Shown here in pieces: positions 41,149-60,893 of a stretch of 64,000 nt of DNA. The translations under genes and the position numbers were made by a program. Source of the stretch: Oscillatoria sp. HE19RPO (GTDB lineage Bacteria; Cyanobacteriota; Cyanobacteriia; Cyanobacteriales; Laspinemataceae); assembly GCF_024220515.1 (NCBI RefSeq), contig NZ_JAMXOT010000019.1:1-64000 (forward strand). The letters run 5' to 3'. Position 1 is the stretch's first letter. Each line of letters starts with the position of its first letter. The notes under the pieces were generated by a model that worked only from the letters and a program-made list of their open reading frames with translations, ran no database searches and was not told where the DNA came from.

Positions 41149-41376
41149 GATGAGTTGAAACTCAGGCCATCAGATAGGTGTAAAGTATATTCGTTCAATC
41201 ACAATACTGCTCAAATAAGATTCAGGTTTCATCCAGGTTAAATTTTATACAAAAGCCTCAGTTCCCCCCCACAACTCTCGAAACTGAGCATAGCAAAACC
41301 AGAGGGCAACTCACACCCCCCCTCAGCACAAGTATTAACAAATGACTAATAGCCAATGACCAATGACCAGCCCCAG
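41149..41376. other. Region at the distal (trailer) end of the CRISPR array
   Basis: No gene or promoter recognised. A run of AATGACC/AATGACT heptamers at 41338-41370 belongs to the family also seen between rplJ and rplL. Confidence 0.5.
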
Positions 41377-44300
41377 GTACTCAACGCCTTGCGGCATCAG
41401 AGGTTCAAACGGTGGGTTTAGAACATCGTGAGACCGTTCGATCCAGTTGTGCTCAACGCCTTGCGGCATCAGAGGTTCGAGCGGTTGGACTTGATGTGTC
41501 GCCACATCTGGTTTTGTAGTCGGTGTTCAACGCCTTGCGGCATCAGAGGTTCGAGCGGTCAGGAGCGTCAATCCCACAGAATCTAATTTTCCGCTGTGCT
41601 CAACGCCTTGCGGCATCAGAGGTTCGAGCGGAGCTTCCAAGCGCTACCTGTGGTCAACATATAAACCCGTGTGCTCAACGCCTTGCGGCATCAGAGGTTC
41701 GAGCGGGGTACGATGCCTTGATGAACTTGGGTCCATTGGTTCCGTGCTCAACGCCTTGCGGCATCAGAGGTTCGAGCGGGGATGCTTCGTGGAGAACCCA
41801 GTATATTTGGACCGTGCTCAACGCCTTGCGGCATCAGAGGTTCGAGCGGCCTTTGTAAGCATTAATAAGGTCGGGGTAGCGCATCCGTGCTCAACGCCTT
41901 GCGGCATCAGAGGTTCGAGCGGGATTGCTGGGGCCGTCCGGTCCGGTTCCGACACCACGTGCTCAACGCCTTGCGGCATCAGAGGTTCGAGCGGCTACAA
42001 CACCCGCCGCACTTTGAGCGGCACTGTAGAGTGCTCAACGCCTTGCGGCATCAGAGGTTCGAGCGGTTAGTGCGGTTGTGCAGACTCCCATAAAAAAACC
42101 GTGCTCAACGCCTTGCGGCATCAGAGGTTCGAGCGGAGAGCTAGGTTCTCGCCGAGTTATCCCGGGTGCTGGTGCTCAACGCCTTGCGGCATCAGAGGTT
42201 CGAGCGGAACGATCGCGTCGTAATCGAAGTCTGCCGAAACATAGTGCTCAACGCCTTGCGGCATCAGAGGTTCGAGCGGGATCGTCTCGCGGTACGCCTT
42301 AACTGCATTCGTTACGTGCTCAACGCCTTGCGGCATCAGAGGTTCGAGCGGTCCTAAACCCGTGATCTCAGAGAATCACGGGTTTTCGTGCTCAACGCCT
42401 TGCGGCATCAGAGGTTCGAGCGGGGGAATTAGCATTGGGGAAATTACCAGCTTATTTACGTGCTCAACGCCTTGCGGCATCAGAGGTTCGAGCGGCCGTT
42501 CCAGAACGAGAGGGTGGGCAATGCTTGGAGTGCTCAACGCCTTGCGGCATCAGAGGTTCGAGCGGGACCACAGACGCGGAACTGATAATTTCTTTGATAT
42601 CGTGCTCAACGCCTTGCGGCATCAGAGGTTCGAGCGGGGAAGCCAGCGCCGCTTCTTGCCACTTCCCGGGATAGTGCTCAACGCCTTGCGGCATCAGAGG
42701 TTCGAGCGGGGGCCATGCGGATCGGATATGAACAACGACCTAACAGTGCTCAACGCCTTGCGGCATCAGAGGTTCGAGCGGGTTTGCTTGGGCCAATCCT
42801 GAAAACTACCCAGTTGTGCTCAACGCCTTGCGGCATCAGAGGTTCGAGCGGGGTTTATCTGGTATCTGGGGTGCTTCCCCGTATTGTGCTCAACGCCTTG
42901 CGGCATCAGAGGTTCGAGCGGATTCTCTCCCTTTCCCTGCTGCTACACTACTAGAGCGTGCTCAACGCCTTGCGGCATCAGAGGTTCGAGCGGGATATTC
43001 CTATCCCTGGTATCTCATCTATGTATCTGTGCTCAACGCCTTGCGGCATCAGAGGTTCGAGCGGTGTCCTCATAGTGGTAGCTAATTTGTCCGGCTACTG
43101 GGTGGTGCTCAACGCCTTGCGGCATCAGAGGTTCGAGCGGAATACCTTCGGGATACCGCTGGCGTGCCTCCTGAGGTGCTCAACGCCTTGCGGCATCAGA
43201 GGTTCGAGCGGGGTGGCGACGAAGTAATAATCAGGGGAAGTAACAGTGCTCAACGCCTTGCGGCATCAGAGGTTCGAGCGGATTTATGGGCGATCGGCAT
43301 CAATCATTGTTGACTAACGTGCTCAACGCCTTGCGGCATCAGAGGTTCGAGCGGTCTGGGAAAGCGCGCGGACCCGGAGCAGATCCGGAGGTGCTCAACG
43401 CCTTGCGGCATCAGAGGTTCGAGCGGGAGCGATACGGTACTAACCAATGCTGAAAGCATGGGTGCTCAACGCCTTGCGGCATCAGAGGTTCGAGCGGGCG
43501 GAAAAGCGGGTTTTACATTGAAATACCTGAGTGTGCTCAACGCCTTGCGGCATCAGAGGTTCGAGCGGTATATACCCGCCGTGTACTCAGGCTGACCGCC
43601 GGTCGTGCTCAACGCCTTGCGGCATCAGAGGTTCGAGCGGAGATATCAGCCAAGATACGCTCTTGACGGGTCAACAGTGCTCAACGCCTTGCGGCATCAG
43701 AGGTTCGAGCGGTTTTTCTAACCCTGAATTGATAGTCAGTTTCATCGGTGTGCTCAACGCCTTGCGGCATCAGAGGTTCGAGCGGGAGTTCAGAATACTC
43801 GGTAAAAAGAGGCAATCTTATGTGCTCAACGCCTTGCGGCATCAGAGGTTCGAGCGGCGGATTGCTTGCAGTAGACTTGCTTGCAACGCAATGTGCTCAA
43901 CGCCTTGCGGCATCAGAGGTTCGAGCGGTCTGACCCATAAGCGTCTCTTGCTTTTTACGGATATCTTGTGCTCAACGCCTTGCGGCATCAGAGGTTCGAG
44001 CGGTCGCTGGGAATGCCTCAGCGCAACGACTGGGAAAGTGCTCAACGCCTTGCGGCATCAGAGGTTCGAGCGGGGGGATCCCCGACGCCATCAAGGAACT
44101 GATTGAGAAAGTGCTCAACGCCTTGCGGCATCAGAGGTTCGAGCGGCAACCAGGCGGGAATTGCATCATTGCCCGAGGGAGTGCTCAACGCCTTGCGGCA
44201 TCAGAGGTTCGAGCGGAAATATTTGCCCGCAATCTCCATCCCTTTATCTACGTGCTCAACGCCTTGCGGCATCAGAGGTTCGAGCGGGAATTTTCGTAAT

Positions 44301-46664
44301 CGTCAACACTAAAAATCAGTTACGTGCTCAACGCCTTGCGGCATCAGAGGTTCGAGCGGTCAATCATGCTGACAAGCATGGCGCGAAGTTTGTGTGCTCA
44401 ACGCCTTGCGGCATCAGAGGTTCGAGCGGGATATCGCCCTGCGGCTTGTGCCGTTCGCAGGTTGGGTGCTCAACGCCTTGCGGCATCAGAGGTTCGAGCG
44501 GTGTAGGTTCTACCGCCGCGATCAGCAGGATGATCGGAAGTGCTCAACGCCTTGCGGCATCAGAGGTTCGAGCGGCGGTTATAACAAAAGTGTATTCGTT
44601 GTAAGAAGTGTGCTCAACGCCTTGCGGCATCAGAGGTTCGAGCGGTGATGAGCCGAATCACCCTCCGGCGAGAGAGAATGTGCTCAACGCCTTGCGGCAT
44701 CAGAGGTTCGAGCGGCTCTTTTCTTCTGGCTGCATATTGCGATCGCGGGGCGTGCTCAACGCCTTGCGGCATCAGAGGTTCGAGCGGTCGAATTTGGTGA
44801 GTTGACCGGAAACCCGGGACCCTCTCGCGTGCTCAACGCCTTGCGGCATCAGAGGTTCGAGCGGTTTAGTCAAACGAGTGCTAGGGTCTGGTTTGAGGAT
44901 GTGCTCAACGCCTTGCGGCATCAGAGGTTCGAGCGGATAGTATCGAATTATCAGCCCGAAATACGATTAACTCGTGCTCAACGCCTTGCGGCATCAGAGG
45001 TTCGAGCGGTGTTGATAGCGCTTGTGGAGAGCGTTTTATTCAAGTGCTCAACGCCTTGCGGCATCAGAGGTTCGAGCGGCTTTGATTGTGAAGGTGTCGC
45101 TAACGATGCTCACGAAGTGCTCAACGCCTTGCGGCATCAGAGGTTCGAGCGGAGGCAGTTGACCCGCTATCCATTCGGAGAATCCAGAGTGCTCAACGCC
45201 TTGCGGCATCAGAGGTTCGAGCGGGTCGAACTCGGTAGCACGTTCAACTTCGCTATAATGTGCTCAACGCCTTGCGGCATCAGAGGTTCGAGCGGAATGC
45301 TATCAACGTTTTTCTCAGCAGCCTCTACCGGTGCTCAACGCCTTGCGGCATCAGAGGTTCGAGCGGGACTGAGTTCCTGATGCTGATTCTTCCAAATCTC
45401 GGTGCTCAACGCCTTGCGGCATCAGAGGTTCGAGCGGTTAAAAATATTGTAAAGAAATATTAAATTGGGTTGGTGCTCAACGCCTTGCGGCATCAGAGGT
45501 TCGAGCGGAGCTAGAAACTGTCAGGTTCACCCGGTGACGACGGTGCTCAACGCCTTGCGGCATCAGAGGTTCGAGCGGGTGTCCATACTCCAGCCATTGC
45601 GATCGCAAGTAATGTGCTCAACGCCTTGCGGCATCAGAGGTTCGAGCGGTCTTCCCAAATCTCGGGAAGTGTTGGGGCGGTTGAAACGTGCTCAACGCCT
45701 TGCGGCATCAGAGGTTCGAGCGGACATCCCCGGATTATTTGGGGTCTCAGTTACAATCAGTGCTCAACGCCTTGCGGCATCAGAGGTTCGAGCGGTTGGT
45801 AGAATGCATTGCTTTGTGACATAATTGAATTAGTGCTCAACGCCTTGCGGCATCAGAGGTTCGAGCGGTATAAAGGCCATTGGCGCTGTGTCGCCCTGAT
45901 TCCCAGTGCTCAACGCCTTGCGGCATCAGAGGTTCGAGCGGTCACGCGATGCGATCGCACGATCGCACTCTGTGATGTGCTCAACGCCTTGCGGCATCAG
46001 AGGTTCGAGCGGGTCTTTAAGATCTATAAGATCTAGAGCGTTCTGGAACGTGCTCAACGCCTTGCGGCATCAGAGGTTCGAGCGGTTTAGGATTGTATCT
46101 AGTCCAATGCCGGATTTACAAAGTGCTCAACGCCTTGCGGCATCAGAGGTTCGAGCGGACCGCAATGAGGAAGGCTTCCGCAAAATCATTCCTGTGCTCA
46201 ACGCCTTGCGGCATCAGAGGTTCGAGCGGTAGCAGTGATTTTTAGCAGAAACGTAAACCGCTATGTGCTCAACGCCTTGCGGCATCAGAGGTTCGAGCGG
46301 TGGTTGACGGGTCTTTTTTAGTCCCCTTTAGCAGTTTATGTGCTCAACGCCTTGCGGCATCAGAGGTTCGAGCGGCCTCTCCGATTTGCCAACCCAACTC
46401 ATAAAAATTCATGTGCTCAACGCCTTGCGGCATCAGAGGTTCGAGCGGACTAATATGATGCACCCAGAACTGACCATCTGGGATAGTGCTCAACGCCTTG
46501 CGGCATCAGAGGTTCGAGCGGAAAGTAATCAAAGGAGCCGCGTAAGTGCCAACCCGTGCTCAACGCCTTGCGGCATCAGAGGTTCGAGCGGTCGTGGAAC
46601 ATCCGAGAGGGCGAGAGGGGTTGTACCAGTGCTCAACGCCTTGCGGCATCAGAGGTTCGAGCGG
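41377..46664 (-). CRISPR. CRISPR array, 74 repeats and 73 spacers, type I-B associated
   Basis: Repeats are 36 bases, beginning GTGCTCAACGCCTTGCGGCA and ending GAGGTTCGAGCGG on the plus strand, with the small stem GCC-ttgc-GGC. Spacers are 34-41 bases, mostly 34-37. Almost all repeats are identical. The third (41523) has GTGTTC, and the first (41377-41412) differs at three positions (GTAC start, TTCAAACGG end), which marks it as the old end. The leader is therefore at the right, beside cas2, and the array is transcribed on the minus strand, like the cas genes. Cas6 cleavage would leave the 8-base handle TTGAGCAC on each crRNA. Positions were traced by eye, repeat by repeat. Confidence 0.98.
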
Positions 46665-46915
46665 GGCGCGCCCCAGAGTCCTCAGATGGACATTGCTCTG
46701 AGTCGATTTTACACGCACCCTGGACTGAATCATCATCCCTTCACCTCCATCCCTCGAACCTCTGTGTTCACCCATCCCTCAAACCCTTACCCTCCCTTCA
46801 TTCTACCCAAATTCAAGCATCATCACCACCCTGAAACCACCTCCCAATCTAAACCCCATCAGTCTTTCACCGCATCCCAGCAGACAACACCCGGTCACAA
46901 CCCCAGGTGCTTGCA
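46665..46915 (-). promoter_or_regulatory. CRISPR leader
   Basis: A 251-base non-coding stretch between cas2 and the newest repeat, purine-rich on the minus strand. A possible -10 box TAAAAT lies at 46706-46711 on the minus strand, about 40 bases ahead of the first repeat, with only a weak -35. New spacers should be inserted at 46664. Confidence 0.65.
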
Positions 46916-47215
46916 TCAAATCACCCGATGGGACTCCTCCGGCAAGGGCCAGGAGCCAGGACGGTTATAAGCGGCAAGGCCCTGCACGCACTGGTTCGGT
47001 AACCGGATCAACAGCAAACTATCCTCCTCTGCCAACACCTTCTCTAACTCCCAGCGCAATTTCTCCCGTCCCCGTTGATTCAACCAACAGCGAAACATCG
47101 AATATTGGATCCGTTCCCCATAGCCTTGTAACAGCTTATATGCCTTCCGCCAACGCTTCGGATTCCGGATGTCATAACAAACCAAATACCAATTGTGAGC
47201 CTCACTCATCGCCAC
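46916..47215 (-). CDS. cas2: CRISPR-associated endonuclease Cas2
   Basis: A 99-residue ferredoxin-fold subunit of the Cas1-Cas2 integrase that fixes the spacer length and bridges the Cas1 dimers. The N-terminal WYLVCYDIRNPKRWRKAYKL carries the conserved Asp of the first strand and the Arg after it. YGERIQYSMFRCWLNQRGRE and the strand LLLIRLP complete the family pattern. It starts three bases after the stop of cas4-cas1 and lies directly next to the leader. The extension after GLAAYNRPG is short and polar. Confidence 0.95.
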   Translation of the reverse strand: MAMSEAHNWYLVCYDIRNPKRWRKAYKLLQGYGERIQYSMFRCWLNQRGREKLRWELEKVLAEEDSLLLIRLPNQCVQGLAAYNRPGSWPLPEESHRVI

Positions 47216-47218
47216 ACC

Positions 47219-48883
47219 TCAACGCAACACCAATTGACCAAATAACCCCCCTTCCCCGCACCACTCTTTTTCCAAAAGTCGCACCTCTAACTCCAACAAC
47301 CGCCGATAGGTGAGGGAATACCCCGTTACCGGATGTTTCCAAGTTTCTTCCTTGCGCCGTTCGTACAGATTCACCAACTTGCGCCGTCCGGAATCGCTCA
47401 ACCACACTTGCTCCCCGCGCACCTCAAAGTCTTCTCGCACCTCCCACTGCTGGCGATTCACCGATGCCATCACCGGCATATCCACCAAGGGCACCCGAAA
47501 AATCTCCATCAAATCCAGGGCCAGGGGCGGCGCTTGGGTGCGCGGTTGATGGTAAAATCCCAGGGCCGGTTCTAACCCGACGGTGAGGATGGCATTCATC
47601 ACATCTTTCATCAGTAACGCATACCCAAAACTGAGCAAAGCATTAAACCGATCCTTGGGCGGACGACGGTTGCGCCCGGAAAACCCCATTTCTGCAGGCG
47701 CTTCCGTGGAAATCAGGCAAGGTAAGGCCCCAAAATAAAGGGCGGCTAAGTTCCCCTCTAACCCCAGCAGGGATTCTAGGGAAGTCGCCTGGGGAACTTG
47801 CTTGAGGACTTTCTTCATCTGAATGATGGTCTCATTCAACCGCGCGGCAGGTTGCTTTAAACCCCGTTTCCCGCGCATCAAAAATTTACGCTGTCCTTGA
47901 GCCCGACACAGCACCAGTTTCCGGGCCAATTCCAGACAAAATCCCCCATCGGATAAGGCGCTATACTGGCGAATCCGCCGCTGGATACTGCCCTGACGGC
48001 TGTCGAAACTGCCAATATACCGGCCACCCCCAGAGACAAAATGTACCCCAATGCCATGATGGGCGCAAAAATGCAGGGCTTGAGTTGACAATTGTGAGAA
48101 ACTATGCATCACCAGTTGCCCGACTTGCTGCACCGGCAGGGTTTCTGGAGATTGACCCCGGCGGGTAATTTTCAGTTGTTCTCCGGTGCGCCCTACCGCC
48201 GTACCCGGTTCGAGAATATGCAGCACTTGGCGGTCATCATCTTCGGGAAAGAGGCGAATCGGTTGCCATTCGCGGTTATGTGCGAGCCTTGCTTCTTCCG
48301 GTAAACAGACCGGGGCCAGGGAACATCGGGCACATAACCGCTCGTTTTCGGTGACAGGAGGACGCTGAGGGGAGACCCGCAGGATTCGCGCCCGGTGGAT
48401 GGCATCCCGAACCGTTTGACGTCCGGCATCATCCAGGGGAACATGAACCAGGACGTTATCGGCATGGTAGCGAATCCGTCCTTCTTTGACGGGAATTTTG
48501 AGGGCGGATTCGATGAGATAGGCGTAGGCGAGGACTTGCAGGCGATCGCTCTCCCAGGGAATGGGTTTTTTGTCAGCATCCCGATTACAACGTCCCCGCT
48601 TATGTTCATAGGGAATCGTCTCCCCATCCCGAGTCCGCAAAGCATCCACCGCCCCGCGCAATCCCAATTCTGCGGATTCCAGAAACAATTCTTCCCAGGT
48701 TTCATCCTCCTGTTTTTCCAGTTCCGCGTGCAGTCTTCGTCCAGCAAACACAGCAGCATTTTGGGTATAGAGTTCCTCCACTTCTTCCAGATAGAAAAGG
48801 CGAGGACAATAGGCAAGGGCATGGAGGGCAGAAACGCGCAGGGTTTCTGATTGAGTTACAGGATTATTGTCGATTAATTGCAT
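47219..48883 (-). CDS. cas4-cas1: Cas4-Cas1 fusion protein
   Basis: A 554-residue fusion. Residues 1-200 are Cas4, a RecB-like exonuclease that trims prespacers and checks the PAM: Cys 26 (AYCPRLF) with Cys 184, 187 and 193 (CARCSLAPVC) should hold an iron-sulfur cluster, and GAVDAL (Asp 80), YEHKRG (Glu 93, Lys 95) and Gln 116 form the nuclease site. Residues 205-554 are Cas1, the integrase: Glu 376 in GLEGNLAALYF, His 445 in LGFYHQ and the acidic DLMEIF segment (Glu 460) are the metal ligands. Cas4-Cas1 fusions are known in several type I subtypes. A lone degenerate repeat lies just upstream (48917-48952). Confidence 0.95.
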   Translation of the reverse strand: MQLIDNNPVTQSETLRVSALHALAYCPRLFYLEEVEELYTQNAAVFAGRRLHAELEKQEDETWEELFLESAELGLRGAVDALRTRDGETIPYEHKRGRCNRDADKKPIPWESDRLQVLAYAYLIESALKIPVKEGRIRYHADNVLVHVPLDDAGRQTVRDAIHRARILRVSPQRPPVTENERLCARCSLAPVCLPEEARLAHNREWQPIRLFPEDDDRQVLHILEPGTAVGRTGEQLKITRRGQSPETLPVQQVGQLVMHSFSQLSTQALHFCAHHGIGVHFVSGGGRYIGSFDSRQGSIQRRIRQYSALSDGGFCLELARKLVLCRAQGQRKFLMRGKRGLKQPAARLNETIIQMKKVLKQVPQATSLESLLGLEGNLAALYFGALPCLISTEAPAEMGFSGRNRRPPKDRFNALLSFGYALLMKDVMNAILTVGLEPALGFYHQPRTQAPPLALDLMEIFRVPLVDMPVMASVNRQQWEVREDFEVRGEQVWLSDSGRRKLVNLYERRKEETWKHPVTGYSLTYRRLLELEVRLLEKEWCGEGGLFGQLVLR

Positions 48884-48916
48884 AGTAAAGATGCCGATAA
48901 GTTGAGATGAAATTTA

Positions 48917-48952
48917 GTTTTCAACGCCTAACGGCATCTGAGGTTAAACAGG
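48917..48952 (-). repeat. Lone degenerate CRISPR repeat ahead of cas4-cas1
   Basis: Aligned without gaps to the array repeat, about 27 of 36 bases agree, including TCAACGCCT, CGGCATC and GAGGTT. The minus-strand 3' end reads TTGAAAAC where array repeats have TTGAGCAC. It keeps the GCC-N4-GGC stem. It lies in the 121-base gap between cas5 and cas4-cas1, in the same orientation as the array. Confidence 0.85.
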
Positions 48953-49004
48953 ACGACTTGCTCGACCGTTAATGCTTAATCGCTTCCGAACCTGCTTTAT
49001 CGAT

Positions 49005-49637
49005 TCAATCTGACTTGATGACAGTCCAAGCTAAATCGGGAGGTTCCCATTGTTGGGAGGGGTCGAGTAGTCGATAATTCTGCCAGCGCGTTCCCCGAGA
49101 CCCTAGATGATCGACCCAATAGGGTAAAGTGAGCAAGCCATTTTCATCTAGGACAATCCAGGATAAAGACTCGCCGGTATAGTCTGGGGGTAATAAAGTC
49201 ACTGCATTGACTAAATCCCGACTTTCTCCTAAGCATAATCCACCAAAGCGGGTGATGGCCTGGGGGTTGGCAAGGGCTTGTTGGAGGCGTTCGGTTAAGG
49301 TAGGCTTGGCTTTATCTTTACCCGTAGCAATCCAGACGATAAACTGAATATCCGTCAGGAGTTCTTGATAGTCAGGTCTGGCATTGCTGGGGTCATGGAT
49401 ATCTTTTTTCTTGAATCGGCGAAACGTGCGAATGACTCGGGATTTTTGGGGGTGAGACAAAAGGCCGATCGCCAATTGAATGCCGCAATGTTGATAGCGA
49501 TCGGTTTCGCCCACCATTGAGAGTAACATTCCATAGACGGTCGATGGTGGAGGGACGGGATAGGTTTCGGCATATTCCCGCGCCCGAGATTGGCGAAAGC
49601 AGGCGATCGGGACTTCTACTTGTAAGGCGATCGTCAT
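49005..49637 (-). CDS. cas5: Cas5 of type I-B (Cmx5/DevS-like)
   Basis: A 210-residue RAMP protein that caps the 5' handle of the crRNA in the Cascade complex. The N-terminal ALQVEVPIACFRQSRAREYA followed by PPPSTVYGMLLSMVGE is the Cas5 signature, with the glycine-rich turn in GLCLGESRDLVNAV. The pattern fits the DevS/Cmx5 group of the Myxococcus-type I-B system. It overlaps the end of cas7 by four bases (ATGA), implying coupled translation. Confidence 0.92.
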   Translation of the reverse strand: MTIALQVEVPIACFRQSRAREYAETYPVPPPSTVYGMLLSMVGETDRYQHCGIQLAIGLLSHPQKSRVIRTFRRFKKKDIHDPSNARPDYQELLTDIQFIVWIATGKDKAKPTLTERLQQALANPQAITRFGGLCLGESRDLVNAVTLLPPDYTGESLSWIVLDENGLLTLPYWVDHLGSRGTRWQNYRLLDPSQQWEPPDLAWTVIKSD

Positions 49638-50542
49638 GCTAAATCCTCCAGATCCAAATCTTCGGCAATGACTCGTTTCACATTTTGAACAGCGGTTTTA
49701 AGGCCTACAAATACATTGGCCCCCAATTCTTCTAGCATTTCTCCCGCATCTGATTGGGCGATCGCACCGGCAATCCATAACTCATTCGCCTCAATATCTC
49801 CCGCCTGAACCCGGCGCAATAAATCCGGTATGGAAATCTCCCCATCCTCTTCTTGGAAGCAATATAAAAACCGAGGAGAAAAATCATGGGTCCAGCGCAA
49901 CACTAAACTTTCTGGCGAGAAATCATACAAAAACCGCGCTTGATTCCCCCCCACTTCTCCAATCGAGGTTAATCCATCTAAAACCCCGATAATCCGGGAT
50001 TTATCTGTGAGGCGATCGGGGGTTAAAGCAAACCCATATTGATAACGAGTCGCATGAACTTCGGTTCCATACAATGAGGTTGTTCCTTTTTGACCACTTT
50101 TGGCATTAAAGGTAATATCCCCTTCAAAAGGAACCATTGAAACGGCCCGAGTCACTTCTAACACTCCTCGTTTTGCTGTGGTGGTTCCCTTCTCTCGCTT
50201 TTTCCCTTTTTTGGGTTCATCAGACCCTTCTGACTTGGCTGCCTCTGCTTTCATATATCCCAAGACATCATCATCAATATAGGTTTCCTCATCAAAATTA
50301 TCATTCTGCCAAATATTATCATTTTTAGCATCATTCCATTGACGATTGACCTGATAGCCATTTCCGCAGGTTTGCCAGTAATAGCGTAATGCCCAGCGAA
50401 TGGCTTCTGCTGAAACGGTCGTATGAACATCTCCTTTCCAGAACAACTTTTGCAGGGTGGTGATATTCCCTTCATTTTCACCGCGATTGTTGGCTGCTGT
50501 ACCGTAGGCAGTTAAAATGTTTCCAAACAAGTGAAAAGACAT
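49634..50542 (-). CDS. cas7: Cas7 of type I-B (Cst2/DevR-like)
   Basis: A 302-residue backbone subunit that polymerises along the crRNA spacer. The start MSFHLFGNILTAYGTAANNR, followed by TVSAEAIRWALRYYW, is typical of the Cst2/DevR branch of Cas7. A charged loop at about residues 95-125 (SEGSDEPKKGKKREKGTTT) lies in the thumb or palm insertion and is low-complexity. GTEVHATRYQYGFALTPD and the glycine-rich GEVGGNQARFLYDFSP are family segments. The gap to cas8 upstream is 66 bases. Confidence 0.93.
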   Translation of the reverse strand: MSFHLFGNILTAYGTAANNRGENEGNITTLQKLFWKGDVHTTVSAEAIRWALRYYWQTCGNGYQVNRQWNDAKNDNIWQNDNFDEETYIDDDVLGYMKAEAAKSEGSDEPKKGKKREKGTTTAKRGVLEVTRAVSMVPFEGDITFNAKSGQKGTTSLYGTEVHATRYQYGFALTPDRLTDKSRIIGVLDGLTSIGEVGGNQARFLYDFSPESLVLRWTHDFSPRFLYCFQEEDGEISIPDLLRRVQAGDIEANELWIAGAIAQSDAGEMLEELGANVFVGLKTAVQNVKRVIAEDLDLEDLA

Positions 50543-50608
50543 GATTAAATTTCCTCAAAATAATGACAACAAGTAGACAAGTGACAAACTTAGACGATTA
50601 ACCCGTAT

Positions 50609-52201
50609 TTACTCCTCAAAATTAAATTCCTCTTCTTCATCGATTTCTTCCTCCGGTTCATAAGCATCAGTACCAGTCATGTCATCTTCTTCCATGTCTT
50701 CTTCTAGCTCTGAGCTTTTTTTCTTAGAACTCTTATAGCTGGCTAGGGCTAACAAAAACAAATCTCGGCCTAATTTCCAGTTATCTTCCCCGGTAATTAA
50801 CTCCATTAACTCTCTCCAATTGTCTTGGACGAGGCTGACCTTTCCTGCCCTCCACCAAAAATCTGTAATAAAAGCTCGGAAAGATGCCGCATTTTTGCAC
50901 CGTCCTAACTTGCTCCGGATTTTGACATTAATTCGGTCAAAATCTGGTTCTTTCTTGCTATCTTCTGCCCGTCCTGCCGCTTTTCCATAAGTATTGCCAA
51001 TGGCTTGATGACAGGCTTGAACAAATAACTGTTTAGACTCGGTATCCCATTTCGATTTTTGAACCATTTGGTACAATCCTTCTCGGTCGTAGGTTAATTT
51101 TTGAAACAATTCCCAGCTCTTGACTTTTGTGGAAAAGCCTTGATACCACTCGTGCGAGTGAGCCAGATTTTCCGTAATCAACTCCCGGGCAAAACTGACA
51201 GTAATAAATCCGCCTTTATCTCCGGGTCTGACTCGGTTTTTAAAAAAAGGAATCTGACGCAAAATCTGGTAGTTTTCACAAGCGCGATCGCTGGCTTCAA
51301 TGAGATGCAATTCCGTTCGTGTCATCTGCTGACTGGACCAAGCAACTGAGCCAAAGGTAATCACCTGGCAGGACTTCACTTGATACTGTTGAGCAGTTTG
51401 AGCAACGGATTCATGGGTTAAAAACTGTAATCCCGCATCCCCCAACCCCGTTGCACAGAAATCTTTATAGCCGGATTTTCTCCACTCTCGATGTTGTCGG
51501 ATTCTAGCAAATGCTTCTAAATCCACAATTTCGGGAACGACTAAAGCATATTGCGCCCGTTTATCTCGCAATTTTGAGCGAAGCAAAAAATAATAGCAAG
51601 CAACCGGGGCAAATAGCAACAGCAAAGCATCCGTGGGATTTTCTTCAAAACTGGTGGAGGAACTAAAGGCCGTATGTCGCACCACGGCCCCAGGATTCAA
51701 CCAACCCGCCACGCCAATCGTTTTATTCAACAGGTTGCCCTGTTTATCACAGAGATTCTTGGCAAAGTCCTGATGAGCATAACTTTTGATAGATTTGTAA
51801 GAAAGAGGAATTTCTACCTCATCTATTGTAAATACGATTGAGACTTTTCCATCAGACTTGTGAGTGCTGGTATGTTGCAAAAAGGTTCGCAGCATTCCTT
51901 GATGCAGCACCCATTTTTGGTCCGGTGGTAAGGTGTCTGAATTCAATCCTCGCAAACTGATAAATCCCTCTGGACTGGTTTGAAAAGATTGTTTCAATAA
52001 CCAATCCAATACTTCAAAATCATGGCCTTGCCAATTGATTAAAATCTGACGAGGATTGAGTTGCCAATCCAGTTGACCGGGCCGATCGCCTTTGGGGATA
52101 TCTTTGCCTAACTGCTGTAAAGTCATCCATAATCCCGCCATTCCCGCCCGATGCAACCCAGTGAGGTGGGGATTACCCAAATTTAAGGTGATGGTTTGCA
52201 T
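50609..52201 (-). CDS. cas8: Cas8 of type I-B (Cmx8 family)
   Basis: A 530-residue large subunit that recognises the PAM and opens the target DNA. The N-terminus TLNLGNPHLTGLHRAGMAGL is the marker of the Cmx8 (Csx13, 'MYXAN') group. IGVAGWLNPGAVVRHTAFSS and DALLLLFAPVACYYFLLRSK fit the same family. The C-terminus is very acidic (EEDMEEDDMTGTDAYEPEEE). In type I-B systems the last part of this gene can give a separate Cas11-like small subunit by internal initiation; I could not single out a start. It overlaps the end of cas3 by 19 bases. Confidence 0.9.
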   Translation of the reverse strand: MQTITLNLGNPHLTGLHRAGMAGLWMTLQQLGKDIPKGDRPGQLDWQLNPRQILINWQGHDFEVLDWLLKQSFQTSPEGFISLRGLNSDTLPPDQKWVLHQGMLRTFLQHTSTHKSDGKVSIVFTIDEVEIPLSYKSIKSYAHQDFAKNLCDKQGNLLNKTIGVAGWLNPGAVVRHTAFSSSTSFEENPTDALLLLFAPVACYYFLLRSKLRDKRAQYALVVPEIVDLEAFARIRQHREWRKSGYKDFCATGLGDAGLQFLTHESVAQTAQQYQVKSCQVITFGSVAWSSQQMTRTELHLIEASDRACENYQILRQIPFFKNRVRPGDKGGFITVSFARELITENLAHSHEWYQGFSTKVKSWELFQKLTYDREGLYQMVQKSKWDTESKQLFVQACHQAIGNTYGKAAGRAEDSKKEPDFDRINVKIRSKLGRCKNAASFRAFITDFWWRAGKVSLVQDNWRELMELITGEDNWKLGRDLFLLALASYKSSKKKSSELEEDMEEDDMTGTDAYEPEEEIDEEEEFNFEE

Positions 52202-54612
52202 GGTTCTGCCCCGGTTTCTTCGCTATATTGAATGACATCAGAGGGTGCGCAACGATAAAACTTCTTGCGCTTCCATTTCTGAAATCCTGGAGTTGCTCGT
52301 ATGGATATGGCCCAATTTTGAGCCTCTTTCATAAACGAGCGATCGCTTTGTTTCGCCGCTTTTTGAATAGCGGGGATGTCATCTGCTAGTAAAACCGTAA
52401 TCGTATAACCCGCCTCCCGTAAATTACCGGGTTGAGTACACCAGATGCCATCCAACCACTCACAGTCAACAGGTGAGTAAGTCATCGATCCGAGTTCTGC
52501 CGCCACGCGGGATAGATCCGCCTGGGAAATTTCCTCTCCGGCGAGGCGATCGAGTAACTGCTTTCCCGTCTCCAGTTCAGACTGTTTATAGGGTTGCTTT
52601 GCATCCCAAGCATAAATGATTCCATCGCACACTTGACCCGAAACTAGGTGATATTCTCCCGTCGTTTCATCTTGCCTCACTCGCCGGTTAAGACGTCCCA
52701 GACGTTGGATTAAAGCCGGTGCCGGTGCGATCGCCGACACCAGCAGATCAGCACTCAGATCCAGCGACATCTCGCACACTTGGGTAGTAATTGCCAACAC
52801 CGGATCGCTTCCCTGAAATGCCTCGATCACCTCTTGATGTTTCACTTTGCGATCTTTATAGCGAAACCGACTGTGATAAATCAATCGCTTCACTGCCACT
52901 CCAGGCAGATGTTGCGTCAGTTGATTTTCGGCTAACCGATATAAATCAATACAACTTTGCACCGAATTAGTGACCCATAGCACTTTTTTCCCCTGATGCA
53001 ATGTCTTTAAAATCGAATCCCAAACTTCCGGCGCTGTTTCTAAATCTGATACCTGGGGAAGATACTGTAACCGATATCGTTTCAGTTCTTCCAGTTCTTG
53101 GGGTCCGTGAATAACGGTAATCTCTTCTCCCAACTCATCTTCTACCACTTGGCGAATGGCTTGTTCTTGTTCTCGGGTTATGCTGGCACTCATTAATAAA
53201 ATTTCGGACCGAGAAAACGTTTTGAGAAATCTTAACAACGTCCCAAATAACATCGGGTCATACGCATGAACCTCATCAAACACAAACGACCCTAGACTAA
53301 TCGCAGGCCACGAATATAAAGGTTTTCGGTTATTTTGCATTAAACCCAAAACCGTATCTACCGTACAAACCATCAGTTTATTTTGCCAAGCCAACAACGA
53401 ACTTAATCGAGCCTGAGCCTCCCGAAATTCTTCATTCTTTTGTTTTTCCTCCTCGGTTTCCTCTATTTCATTCGTGGTTAAGAGTTCCTCTAAATCAATA
53501 TCCGCATGAGAATGGATTAAAGTCGCCTCAATCTGGCTATCGTGGGCATAATCTAAATACCCTTGAGAGGCAGTTCCCATCGTGGGATAGCAGAAAAAGA
53601 GTTTGTGGTTTAATGCTCGGGTTTTCGCCCAAGCATAAGCGCCAATGGTTTTACCCGTTCCGCATCCGGCTTTTACCAGTTTAATCCGGCTACCCGGTGC
53701 AGCAATTTTCTTTTGAAACTCTCGTAACTCCTGACCCTCCAGGCGATCGGTCAGGACATTTTGCAACTCTTCCTCAGACAAAACCCGGGATAAGACTTCT
53801 TCAACCCACTGCTCAATTTCATAGTTTCCCCCCGCTAATGCTGAACCGGCAACATCAGCCGCTAGAACAGTCGCTTTCACTGCCGCAATAAACTTATGCT
53901 GCTGCCAGTCCATTTGTTCTTCAGCTTCACCAAAGTCCCTAACTAGCGTATTTAATGCCTCTTGCAGTTGAGAAATTGACCAATATTCCGGGGGTGGTTT
54001 TTTACAACTTTTTGGCAATCCTAGAAACTTATGGCCCATCATTAAGACTTTTTTAAAATCAGGGTGATGGGTGTAAATTTTTAAGCCATCTCCAGTTTCC
54101 TCTCGAATTTCGGTAACCTGACCCCCCATTTTCAGATGATGTCCCATTGCCGCCCAAACCGCCAGACGCAAATCAGCATTCGGACAATGATTTAACCAGT
54201 CTCGAAAACCCTCCACTTGCAGCGCCAAAATGCCACTAATCACTTCATGGCGAATCATTTGTCTTTCCCCATGTTCTTTCCATGCCTTTAGGAGTTGCTT
54301 TCGACCCTGGGGAATTTTGTCATCTTCTGATTTCAGATGCACCATTTCCTGAAAATGCTGATTCGCCTTCCCCCAGTCATGCAGATAAGCGCCTAATTTC
54401 ACCGTCGCTGCAAAGCGGTCTGGTTCAATGTCGTTCAAATCTAATTGTTCTAAAATCCTGGCTCCTAATTTCTCGACCAGCACCTCAGCAGACTTGAACA
54501 CTGCATGAATGTGACCTGTATAGGTAGCGGCACCTTCAACTTTCGGATGCCGCTCTTTCTGCTTCGGCAATGACTTTGCCAGCAGTTTGGGAAATTCATG
54601 AGATTTCATCAT
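52183..54612 (-). CDS. cas3: Cas3 helicase-nuclease
   Basis: An 809-residue effector that unwinds and cuts target DNA marked by Cascade. The HD nuclease is N-terminal: His 34, the HD pair 78-79 in AYLHDWGKANQHF, His 122 in RHEVISG and His 158-159 in AMGHHLK. The SF2 helicase follows, with Walker A KAGCGTGKT (about residue 325), DEVH box in FVFDEVHAYDPMLFG, motif III LMSASITREQ and motifs V-VI in TQVCEMSLDLSADLLVS and IQRLGRLNRR. All catalytic residues are present. A 6-base gap separates it from orf109. Confidence 0.95.
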   Translation of the reverse strand: MMKSHEFPKLLAKSLPKQKERHPKVEGAATYTGHIHAVFKSAEVLVEKLGARILEQLDLNDIEPDRFAATVKLGAYLHDWGKANQHFQEMVHLKSEDDKIPQGRKQLLKAWKEHGERQMIRHEVISGILALQVEGFRDWLNHCPNADLRLAVWAAMGHHLKMGGQVTEIREETGDGLKIYTHHPDFKKVLMMGHKFLGLPKSCKKPPPEYWSISQLQEALNTLVRDFGEAEEQMDWQQHKFIAAVKATVLAADVAGSALAGGNYEIEQWVEEVLSRVLSEEELQNVLTDRLEGQELREFQKKIAAPGSRIKLVKAGCGTGKTIGAYAWAKTRALNHKLFFCYPTMGTASQGYLDYAHDSQIEATLIHSHADIDLEELLTTNEIEETEEEKQKNEEFREAQARLSSLLAWQNKLMVCTVDTVLGLMQNNRKPLYSWPAISLGSFVFDEVHAYDPMLFGTLLRFLKTFSRSEILLMSASITREQEQAIRQVVEDELGEEITVIHGPQELEELKRYRLQYLPQVSDLETAPEVWDSILKTLHQGKKVLWVTNSVQSCIDLYRLAENQLTQHLPGVAVKRLIYHSRFRYKDRKVKHQEVIEAFQGSDPVLAITTQVCEMSLDLSADLLVSAIAPAPALIQRLGRLNRRVRQDETTGEYHLVSGQVCDGIIYAWDAKQPYKQSELETGKQLLDRLAGEEISQADLSRVAAELGSMTYSPVDCEWLDGIWCTQPGNLREAGYTITVLLADDIPAIQKAAKQSDRSFMKEAQNWAISIRATPGFQKWKRKKFYRCAPSDVIQYSEETGAEPCKPSP

Positions 54613-54618
54613 TTGCCT

Positions 54619-54948
54619 CTAACGCGAATCCTCAAAATTGCAAACGGCATCCCCATCCAAGGAATCAGGATGCACCAAACACTCAAGTTCGGCAATTTTA
54701 TCCGCCTGGGTATGAGTAACAATTCGCACTTGTGCTTCCACAGCCTCTACCCGCTCTTGAACATCGAAATCTCGATTTTGCTGGATTTGCAACCAGTGAC
54801 CTAGCCTCGAAAATTTCTGCTCTAAGGCATTAATCTGCTGATCTTGAACGGCATTGTGTTCTTGTTCAGCTTCAATTAAATCGATAATGATCTGATTCTC
54901 TCGATGCAGGCGACGCAGAACCGAGAGTTCACCATGATTTTGTAACAT
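54619..54948 (-). CDS. Unknown coiled-coil protein in the cas operon (orf109)
   Basis: A 109-residue protein between cas6 and cas3, transcribed with them. I do not recognise the family. The sequence is almost entirely helical with heptads: RRLHRENQIIIDLIEAEQEH, QDQQINALEQKFSRLGHWLQ and VQERVEAVEAQVRIVTHTQA; the tail is acidic. There is no signal peptide or membrane segment. I place the start at ATG 54948, because AAGGAGA lies five bases upstream; a longer reading from 55011 would overlap cas6 and lacks a binding site. Tight spacing (32 bases after cas6, 6 before cas3) suggests a role in the system or in its regulation. Confidence 0.8.
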   Translation of the reverse strand: MLQNHGELSVLRRLHRENQIIIDLIEAEQEHNAVQDQQINALEQKFSRLGHWLQIQQNRDFDVQERVEAVEAQVRIVTHTQADKIAELECLVHPDSLDGDAVCNFEDSR

Positions 54949-54980: not shown

Positions 54981-55622
54981 CTATCGCGTTGCTGGTAAAA
55001 AGTACCCACAACCCATGTGACGACGGCCCCCAATTCCTTCCTCTTGTAATATCAAGGAGTCTTCGTCACTTAATCCGGTGACGAGGGTCGTAAAACCGAC
55101 GATGGTAAATCGCTGAATTTTGATAGTTTTGCGACTGGGGGTTCCATCTTGATCCGTTACTACCGAGAGTTTGCCTTTCACCCCTAAAGCCTCCAGTTGC
55201 CGTCGCGCTGTGTTTAAAAACGACTCGACATCGATGCCATTTTTAATGGTGACAATTCGCGCCTTGAGGGTCGATGCCGGTTGCAGCAGTGTTCGGGTGG
55301 GAATCCCTACGCGCATTTGATGTTTCCCAACCCGCAGGATTTTCCCGGCAAGCTGATACACCAGATGACTTTGAGAGGCACGCATTCGGATCCGAAAATG
55401 CGATCGCTCTGTCAGTAGAATCTTTCCTCGTTGTTCTGGAATGCCTGGAATCGTCAGCAAACCCCAGTGGTCAAGCTGCCGCAGTTCTGGGATTTGATGA
55501 ATCAAGGCGGAGTAGAACCCGTAATTGCTATCACTCGGCCATAACTCTCCCCCGACTCCCTGGACTCCAAAACGCGACTCTAGCACCGGATCGTTTTGCT
55601 TATCAGATTTACTTCGCAACAT
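54981..55622 (-). CDS. cas6: Cas6 crRNA endonuclease (Cmx6-like)
   Basis: A 213-residue RAMP protein that cuts the repeat RNA and stays on the 3' hairpin of the crRNA. The central TERSHFRIRMRASQSHLVYQ and the C-terminal glycine-rich EEGIGGRRHMGCGYFLP are the Cas6 fingerprints, and the family pattern is that of Cmx6 in Myxococcus-type I-B loci. It is the first gene of the cas operon; no strong ribosome-binding site precedes ATG 55622. Codons 2-7 (LRSKSD) match two upstream sequences in the leader, see the element at 55689-55832. Confidence 0.92.
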   Translation of the reverse strand: MLRSKSDKQNDPVLESRFGVQGVGGELWPSDSNYGFYSALIHQIPELRQLDHWGLLTIPGIPEQRGKILLTERSHFRIRMRASQSHLVYQLAGKILRVGKHQMRVGIPTRTLLQPASTLKARIVTIKNGIDVESFLNTARRQLEALGVKGKLSVVTDQDGTPSRKTIKIQRFTIVGFTTLVTGLSDEDSLILQEEGIGGRRHMGCGYFLPATR

Positions 55623-55688
55623 ATTTTTTTAAAAGGAAACTGACAAGGGAAATACCTGAAAACGATGATTCCAGGCATTTCTACTCAT

Positions 55689-55832
55689 GTGTTAAACGCC
55701 CAAAGGCAATCAGAGGTAAGGAGAGCGAGCAAGGGATAATAAGCCTTACCGCTCTAAGCGCCTGCTTTTTGGCAATTCAGACTTACTCCGCAAGTGCTCA
55801 ACGCTGACGTTTTCAGAATTGCTTCGCAACAT
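55689..55832 (-). ncRNA. CreR-like element: degenerate CRISPR repeats with a cas6-matching guide
   Basis: On the minus strand, degenerate repeat a (55829-55794) ends GCGTTGAGCAC, identical to the end of array repeats. The bases directly after it (55793 down to 55777) read TTGCGGAGTAAGTCTGA; the cas6 gene right after its ATG reads TTGCGAAGTAAATCTGA. They differ only at positions 6 and 12. A further degenerate repeat lies at 55725-55689, keeping AACGCC, GGCA and TCAGAGGT on the plus strand. Repeat a itself begins TTGCGAAGCAATTCTGA, again like the cas6 start. A 28-codon reading frame (55832-55746), in frame with cas6, covers the first part. This is either a guide RNA that represses cas transcription or a partial duplication of the cas6 start. 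Confidence 0.55.
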
Positions 55833-55851
55833 CTGCATCTTAGGTGAATCG

Positions 55852-55881
55852 ATTCTAACGTAGCTCGTTTTGAGTTGTCAA
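55852..55881 (-). promoter_or_regulatory. Probable cas operon/CreR-like RNA promoter
   Basis: On the minus strand TTGACA (55881-55876) and TAGAAT (55857-55852) lie 18 bases apart. Transcription would begin near 55845, about 15 bases before degenerate repeat a, and could continue into cas6. Confidence 0.65.
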
Positions 55882-60300: not shown

Positions 60301-60391
60301 TTGTCCTTTGTCCTTTGTCCTTTGTTCTTTGACTGATGAGAGGAGATGGGGGGGATTAGTTTTCCCGATCTTCCCCTGCCTCGAACAATTG

Positions 60392-60851
60392 CCTCAACTT
60401 CTTCGTTCGTAGTGACGAGCTCCGTCGTCATTCCGGATAACGACTGAAGTCGTTACTACAAACAATGGCCTCAACTTCTTCGTTCGTAGTGACGACTTTA
60501 GTCGTCATTACCGGATAACGACTGAAGTCGTTACTACAAACAATGGCCTCAACTTCTTCGTTCGTAGTGACGACTTTAGTCGTCTTCCGGAGTAACGACT
60601 GAAGTCGTTACTACAAACATTGGCCTCAAGTTCTTTGTTCGTAGTGACGTTTAGTCGTCTTCCGGATTAACGACTGAAGTCGTTACTACAAACAATGGCC
60701 TCAACTTCTTCGTTCGTAGTGACGACTTTAGTCGTCTTCCGGATAACGACTGAAGTCGTTACTACAAACATTGGCCTCAAGTTCTTTGTTCGTAGTGACG
60801 ACTTTAGTCGTCTTCCGGATTAACGACTGAAGTCGTTACTACAAACAATGG
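60392..60851. repeat. Six-unit hairpin array between rpoC1 and rpoC2
   Basis: Six tandem units of 75-78 bp start at CCTCAA (60392, 60469, 60547, 60624, 60699, 60775). Each unit holds two inverted pairs, GACGACTTTAGTCGTC and AACGACTGAAGTCGTT, joined by TTCCGGA. Single copies of the second palindrome occur at about 30430 and 62865. The whole gap 60301-60893 holds no gene; heptamer repeats (TGTCCTT) flank its left end. Confidence 0.88.
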
Positions 60852-60893
60852 CCTCAATCCTAGCTTCCGGAAGCTTCCCTATTTCCTCTTGCT

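Follow-up and report, generated by a model that had tools for sequence, protein, structure and literature searches.

A candidate CreR-type guide element upstream of cas6 in a cyanobacterial type I-B CRISPR-Cas locus

The long-form tracrRNA of type II-A systems autorepresses cas9, and so is a guide-like RNA that turns the effector on its own cas promoter; unlike the locus described here, this is a Class 2 system with Cas9 and an unrelated RNA. CreR (Liu et al. 2023, Cell Host Microbe 31:1481) is, as PMC12737573 and PMC12948488 describe it, a crRNA-like RNA from a mini-CRISPR beside cas that partly matches its own cas control region, with no coupled toxin in those descriptions; it is an autorepressor that senses free Cascade (PMC12737573). 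In the CreTA system of type I-B Haloarcula, the highly divergent repeats of CreA are cut by Cas6 to leave an 8-nt 5' handle, and the downstream creA auto-represses the operon promoter (PMC8501985).

The window analysed here is the first 64,000 nucleotides of contig NZ_JAMXOT010000019.1 of Oscillatoria sp. HE19RPO. It carries on its minus strand a complete and open cas gene set of the MYXAN/I-B type. The first gene of the operon is cas6 (Cmx6/Cas6b, 54981–55622; TIGR02807, 8.5e-60; PADLOC Cas6b, 2.2e-72), and cas3, cas8a1/cmx1, cas7, cas5, a cas4-cas1 fusion and cas2 (46916–54612, all open) supply, among other things, the effector with which the guide described below would act. The Cas8 protein matches Cas8a1/Cmx1, and its match to Cmx8 is weak. 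The interval from cas6 to cas3 holds a 109-aa coiled-coil-like ORF (54619–54948) that has no NCBIfam match. The CRISPR array (41377–46760, same strand as cas) has about 74 repeats of 36 nt, CCGCTCGAACCTCTGATGCCGCAAGGCGTTGAGCAC, 72 of 73 identical, and spacers of 34–41 nt that gave no protospacer match in a phage collection. The upstream neighbour of the locus is a large rpoC-type ORF with terminator-like sites, and tandem 76–78-nt repeats with AACGACT/AGTCGTT inverted parts (60356–60857) lie between two large rpoC-type ORFs.

Between this neighbour and cas6, the minus strand reads TTGACA, 18 nt, TAGAAT, GCAGATGTTGCGAAGCAATTCTGAAAACGTCAGCGTTGAGCAC, the guide TTGCGGAGTAAGTCTGA and ATTGCC, with the cas6 ATG about 155 nt past the guide core. 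The degenerate repeat psiR1 (55794–55833) ends by direct reading in AACGTCAGCGTTGAGCAC, with its last base at 55794, and it keeps the last 11 bases of the array repeat. The initial annotation had noticed this array-like ending, and GCGTTGAGCAC is indeed common to psiR1, where it is intact, and the array repeat; the shared end is real, given how uniform the array repeat is. The predicted psiR1 hairpin is GAUGUU/AACGUC (GAUGUU/AACAUC, also predicted, in the near relative G003). A Cas6 cut in psiR1 is predicted, by analogy, to leave the 8-nt handle TTGAGCAC (55801–55794); since psiR1 shares the 3' end alone and has a different hairpin, such cutting is an assumption on our part. The 17-nt guide core (55793–55777) lies directly 3' of psiR1. 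About 60 nt of long spacer separate it from a second degenerate repeat, psiR2 (55717–55689), ACCTCTGATTGCCTTTGGGCGTTTAACAC, which retains a GCC/GGC stem and has counterparts in the other survey loci.

The predicted promoter of the CreR-like RNA (55881–55852, minus strand) has TTGACA at 55881–55876 and TAGAAT at 55857–55852, matches the consensus at 11 of 12 positions in a consensus scan and has a predicted start at about 55845. The stretch from psiR2 to cas6 yielded no convincing promoter for cas6 alone, so this one probably serves the cas operon as well. It is conserved between genomes G000 and G003, whose sequences can be aligned only inside a point at about 55889; the flank of G003 differs, so that promoter, CreR and cas genes seem to move as one cassette. 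The guide stretch is 100% identical in two Laspinema species whose cas6 proteins are 88% identical.

The guide has two target copies in the window. At T2 (55603–55622, minus strand) the cas6 start codon itself (ATG, 55622–55620) is in the PAM position and is followed by the protospacer TTGCGAAGTAAATCTGA (55619–55603). As first annotated, with all coordinates holding, the only mismatches to the guide within positions 1–17 are at 6 and 12, and position 18 also differs; so do 19, 20 and 23, and guide-target matching in the window ends after position 17. The start codon as PAM thus stands for T2, with the amendment that T2 is one of two copies, the other being near the promoter. This copy, T1 (55813–55832, minus strand), consists of a PAM ATG at 55832–55830 and TTGCGAAGCAATTCTGA at 55829–55813, overlaps the 5' part of psiR1, lies 19 nt past the -10 and differs from the guide at 6, 9 and 12; its ATG sits within the psiR1 stem. 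T1, psiR2 and the promoter had not been included in the initial annotation. A search of the whole 7.67-Mb genome for the pattern, allowing 0–1 mismatch, found it four times: in the guide itself, at T2, at T1 and once on a different contig. By chance, a 17-mer that follows ATG and has no more than two mismatches is expected at a rate of 7e-8 per site.

Comparison was the decisive test. The search for cas6 took in 59 relatives together with 390 genomes from the class and 391 from the order, and the upstream DNA was read in about 120 loci. The 17 bases after each site resembling the repeat 3' end were compared with ATG-preceded sites 60–260 nt downstream, all positions being weighted equally. By this test 20 of 107 candidate guides reach at least 12/17 at an ATG-PAM site, where shuffled sequences give an expectation of 0.04; L072, which is counted in the 20, is an artefact from inside an array. 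Candidates discarded as artefacts are L057, L072, L073 and L080, which lie inside real arrays, and the one at 267 in L086, a simple repeat. A degenerate repeat plus guide is present upstream of cas6 in 32 cyanobacterial type I-B (MYXAN) loci, 30 after removal of near-duplicates. In this hand-assembled set, in which every pair has at least 12/17 and the loci are partly related by phylogeny, guides of the 30 loci match their own targets at 13.9/17 positions on average (12–16/17) and the targets of other loci at 5.5/17; the guides themselves differ among loci. Changes in guide and target are paired in the related loci L017/L091 (position 11), L019/L089 (position 14), L027/L028 (positions 13–14) and L050/L120 (positions 2 and 4), which argues for selection on the guide/target pair. 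Thus in 30 non-redundant loci the guide tracks its own target, the comparison of guide and cas6 in related loci that the initial annotation had proposed. The same kind of element is found in the plasmid records of Nostoc sp. MS1, Gloeothece citriformis PCC 7424, Nostoc sp. CENA543 and Synechocystis PCC 6714. A WYL regulator lies upstream of cas6 in 55 of 122 loci, seven of which have the CreR-like element too; the idea that regulator and CreR are mutually exclusive was rejected because of these seven.

The PAM is ATG at 29 of the 30 loci and TTG at the other, and with no condition set on the PAM, ATG still preceded 22 of the 23 targets that match at 14/17 or better 60–260 nt downstream. ATG as PAM, which the initial annotation named for some cyanobacterial type I-B systems, is supported by the literature on close systems, where the PAM is AYG in Synechocystis PCC 6714 I-B and ATG in cyanobacterial I-B CASTs (PMC13199841, PMC11096372). 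Mismatches are concentrated at position 6 (24 of 30 loci), 12 (21) and 18 (25), and are few at positions 1–5 (0–2 each), 7 (none) and 8 (one), with eight at position 9; past position 18 they occur in 15–20 of 30 loci, near the background (to 24). Positions 6 and 12 hold 45 of 92 mismatches, where 10.8 are expected (0 of 20000 permutations). I-B Cascade flips every sixth base (PMC11096372), as the initial annotation had supposed in proposing that such positions do not pair; in Thermotoga maritima I-B a position 6 mismatch is without effect and a position 9 mismatch binds like a full match (PMC13199841), and close systems have 5+1 pairing, a seed of 1–5 and 7 and tolerance at 6 and 9 (PMC13199841, PMC11096372). 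The pattern is as would be expected of a guide selected to pair within a Cascade that flips every sixth base. The guide/target match, its co-variation, the 6/12/18 mismatch pattern and the sequence parts of the element are established.

The targets are not placed identically in all loci. In most relatives the target is downstream of psiR2, 87–223 nt past the guide; in many its start is 8–14 nt past the -10 of a TTGACA-type promoter, near the transcription start, and in the remainder it is placed otherwise relative to the best promoter call. T1 of the window has nearly this usual geometry and is closer to it than is T2. Genome G078 (L018), with an unrelated guide, has a T1-type site alone; G466 (L086), with a third guide, has a T1 13 nt past a -10 and a T2 within the 5' coding part of cas6, each with an 11-nt seed match; and the sole site in G011 and G012 lies in that same part of cas6. 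Judged from site placement, action at the start of cas6 therefore looks recurrent, and use of the start codon exactly as PAM is found, among the survey loci so far, in two Laspinema genomes only. One further locus, L041 (G063), has two ATG targets (822–841 and 1386–1405), one before cas6 and the other about 400 nt upstream of the guide. The latter overlaps what resembles the promoter of a small ORF of HTH-like type (MKQLSIWDHSHLPF...), which is possibly a second regulated gene.

The long spacer has a structure of its own. At 55722–55755 (minus strand) it can form a 12-pair stem, AGAGCGGTAAGG/CCTTGC-CGCTCT, with a 9-nt loop; its pair probabilities are mostly 0.97–0.99 and its z is -2.5. About 20 relatives have a hairpin at the same spot in the long spacer, often with a TTAACA-like loop. 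Two classes of loci can be distinguished, one of about 22 loci with long spacers (guide start to psiR2 core about 70–86 nt, where array spacers of the window have 34–41 nt) and the hairpin just 5' of psiR2 (mean folding z = -1.6), and one with short spacers and no hairpin. In a rough alignment there are compensatory changes at 6 of 10 predicted pairs, three of the 10 being psiR2 pairs that are invariant, and this is moderate evidence suggesting that the hairpin is conserved by compensatory change. An Rfam scan of the region returned one sub-threshold chance match and nothing else.

The element is very probably a CreR-type, crRNA-like autorepressor of the cas operon, and the feedback reading of the initial annotation draws support from the co-variation, the ATG PAM and the 6/12/18 pattern. 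We infer its transcription, Cas6 processing, loading and repression, as well as use of both sites, to run as follows. The promoter at 55881–55852 would transcribe a crRNA-like RNA, which Cas6 would, by analogy, cut within psiR1 and psiR2; the locus's own type I-B Cascade would take up the processed RNA, whose 17-nt guide would pair with local DNA adjoining the ATG PAMs. Cascade would then occupy the target and block transcription with no cleavage, since so short a stretch of pairing falls short of the full R-loop required for cleavage by Cas3. The stop in matching at about 17 bases fits such binding and might explain why a self-targeting guide is tolerated. The predicted start of the CreR/cas transcript would lie about 14 bases upstream of T1, and T2 is the cas6 start codon; with one site beside the promoter and the other at the cas6 start, the RNA probably represses its own and the cas promoter and acts as a block where cas6 begins. 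Guide-loaded Cascade would in this way damp its own RNA and the cas operon, and the brake would ease once array crRNAs or anti-CRISPRs draw Cascade off.

The window and its relatives offer arguments for and against joint action of the two sites. Tentatively, the locus could be a "double-lock" CreR, with one promoter, the guide in the leader RNA and Cascade at both T1 and T2: binding at T1 would limit the guide itself, T2 would be an elongation roadblock with the start codon as PAM, and the spacer hairpin, known from some 20 genomes, would serve the leader as a structural element. If this were true, the self-limited guide level would make the element a homeostat for Cascade occupancy, not a simple off switch. 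In a possible sub-variant, to which we give comparable and equally guarded credence, CreR has a single site, either T1 with T2 left over from duplication, or T2 with T1 being just part of the psiR1 hairpin. The T1-only site of G078, the cas6 5' coding sites of G011 and G012 and the T1 ATG within the psiR1 stem fit one site; on the other hand, T1 and T2 of G003 are identical over ATG plus 17 and differ from the guide only at 6 and 12, and the two sites recur with another guide in G466.

Three further explanations would do away with a cas-regulating guide or make it secondary. The alternative that the initial annotation raised is a partial duplication of the cas6 start that encodes a 28-codon peptide (55832–55746) and has no guide function. 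This frame is open, is the only ORF in the window between guide and cas6 (it overlaps psiR1 and the guide), and puts T1, guide and cas6 in one shared frame. The mismatches do fall at third codon positions, but they are no hint of a peptide, being arithmetic: counted from a start codon that serves as PAM, each sixth base necessarily falls on the third position of a codon, and the frame's ATG at 55832 is the PAM of T1. Within five codons, in the phase of the ATG, 10 of 30 guides have stops, unrelated guides elsewhere match mostly non-coding targets with the same 6/12/18 pattern, and two of three changes in the frame between the two Laspinema species alter the amino acid rather than being synonymous. 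A conserved cas6 peptide duplication is ruled out, since guides differ between genomes yet match their own local sites, and we regard the peptide reading as extremely improbable. Just as improbable is a dead relic, a decayed array end with a past chance match: the repeats are degenerate, but the guide stretch is unchanged between species whose cas6 proteins have diverged, and the paired changes in relatives show selection. An antitoxin RNA like those of CreTA/CrePA, with a toxin gene repressed by the guide and cas control secondary, has the precedent of CreA, which has the same two degenerate repeats and seed pairing (PMC8501985), and some relatives have a small ORF between target and cas6, with hicBA there in Synechocystis PCC 6714. 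In the window, however, no toxin-like gene lies between the targets and cas6, inspection recognised no creT-like small gene there, and T2 is cas6 itself, so that we consider this reading unlikely, though a little less so than the peptide or the relic.

In the pSYLB plasmid of Synechocystis PCC 6714 (L134, 41173–42740), hicB-hicA lies between a WYL regulator and cas6, downstream of the guide and its ATG target, and the guide might control this pair as well as cas. Loci L006, L007, L028, L050, L105 and L120 have ORFs of 71–103 aa with a C-terminal ...H(K/Q)G-NSW/RW--I motif between target and cas6, and L026, L027, L031, L049 and L119 have short coiled-coil-like ORFs there. These small ORFs are possibly Cre-controlled proteins.

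With these findings, probable autorepression of cas by a guide RNA extends across the type I-B systems of cyanobacteria, among them that of Synechocystis PCC 6714, whose structure has been solved. The 6/12/18 mismatches in about 30 natural pairs are evolutionary evidence that flipped bases are free of pairing selection, and the same pairs suggest that repression in nature can work with about 17 nt. For tunable CRISPR circuits, a dual-site form that uses the start codon would be a compact design.

The Synechocystis PCC 6714 type I-B system (pSYLB, PMC11096372) has the same Cas6 family (40% identity) and an ATG-type PAM, and its own element (guide 41173–41189, ATG target at 41260) has mismatches at 6, 8 and 18; it differs from the window in having Cmx8 in place of Cas8a1/Cmx1 as large subunit and its target upstream of both hicBA and cas6. 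CreA (PMC8501985) shares the psiR1-psiS-psiR2 build and seed-only complementarity, but CreA silences a toxin RNA and the only target gene in the window is cas6. Like CreR, the window has a mini-CRISPR of degenerate repeats outside the array and adjoining the cas operon, a guide with partial complementarity to the control region of its own cas genes and an ATG PAM at T1 and T2, no coupled toxin gene, and co-evolution of guide and target. Unlike CreR, it has its target in duplicate, the cas6 start codon being the PAM of one copy, and a long spacer with an internal hairpin, and repression is here what we infer. CreR is already known, and the window's arrangement of two sites with a start-codon PAM looks like a variant of it.
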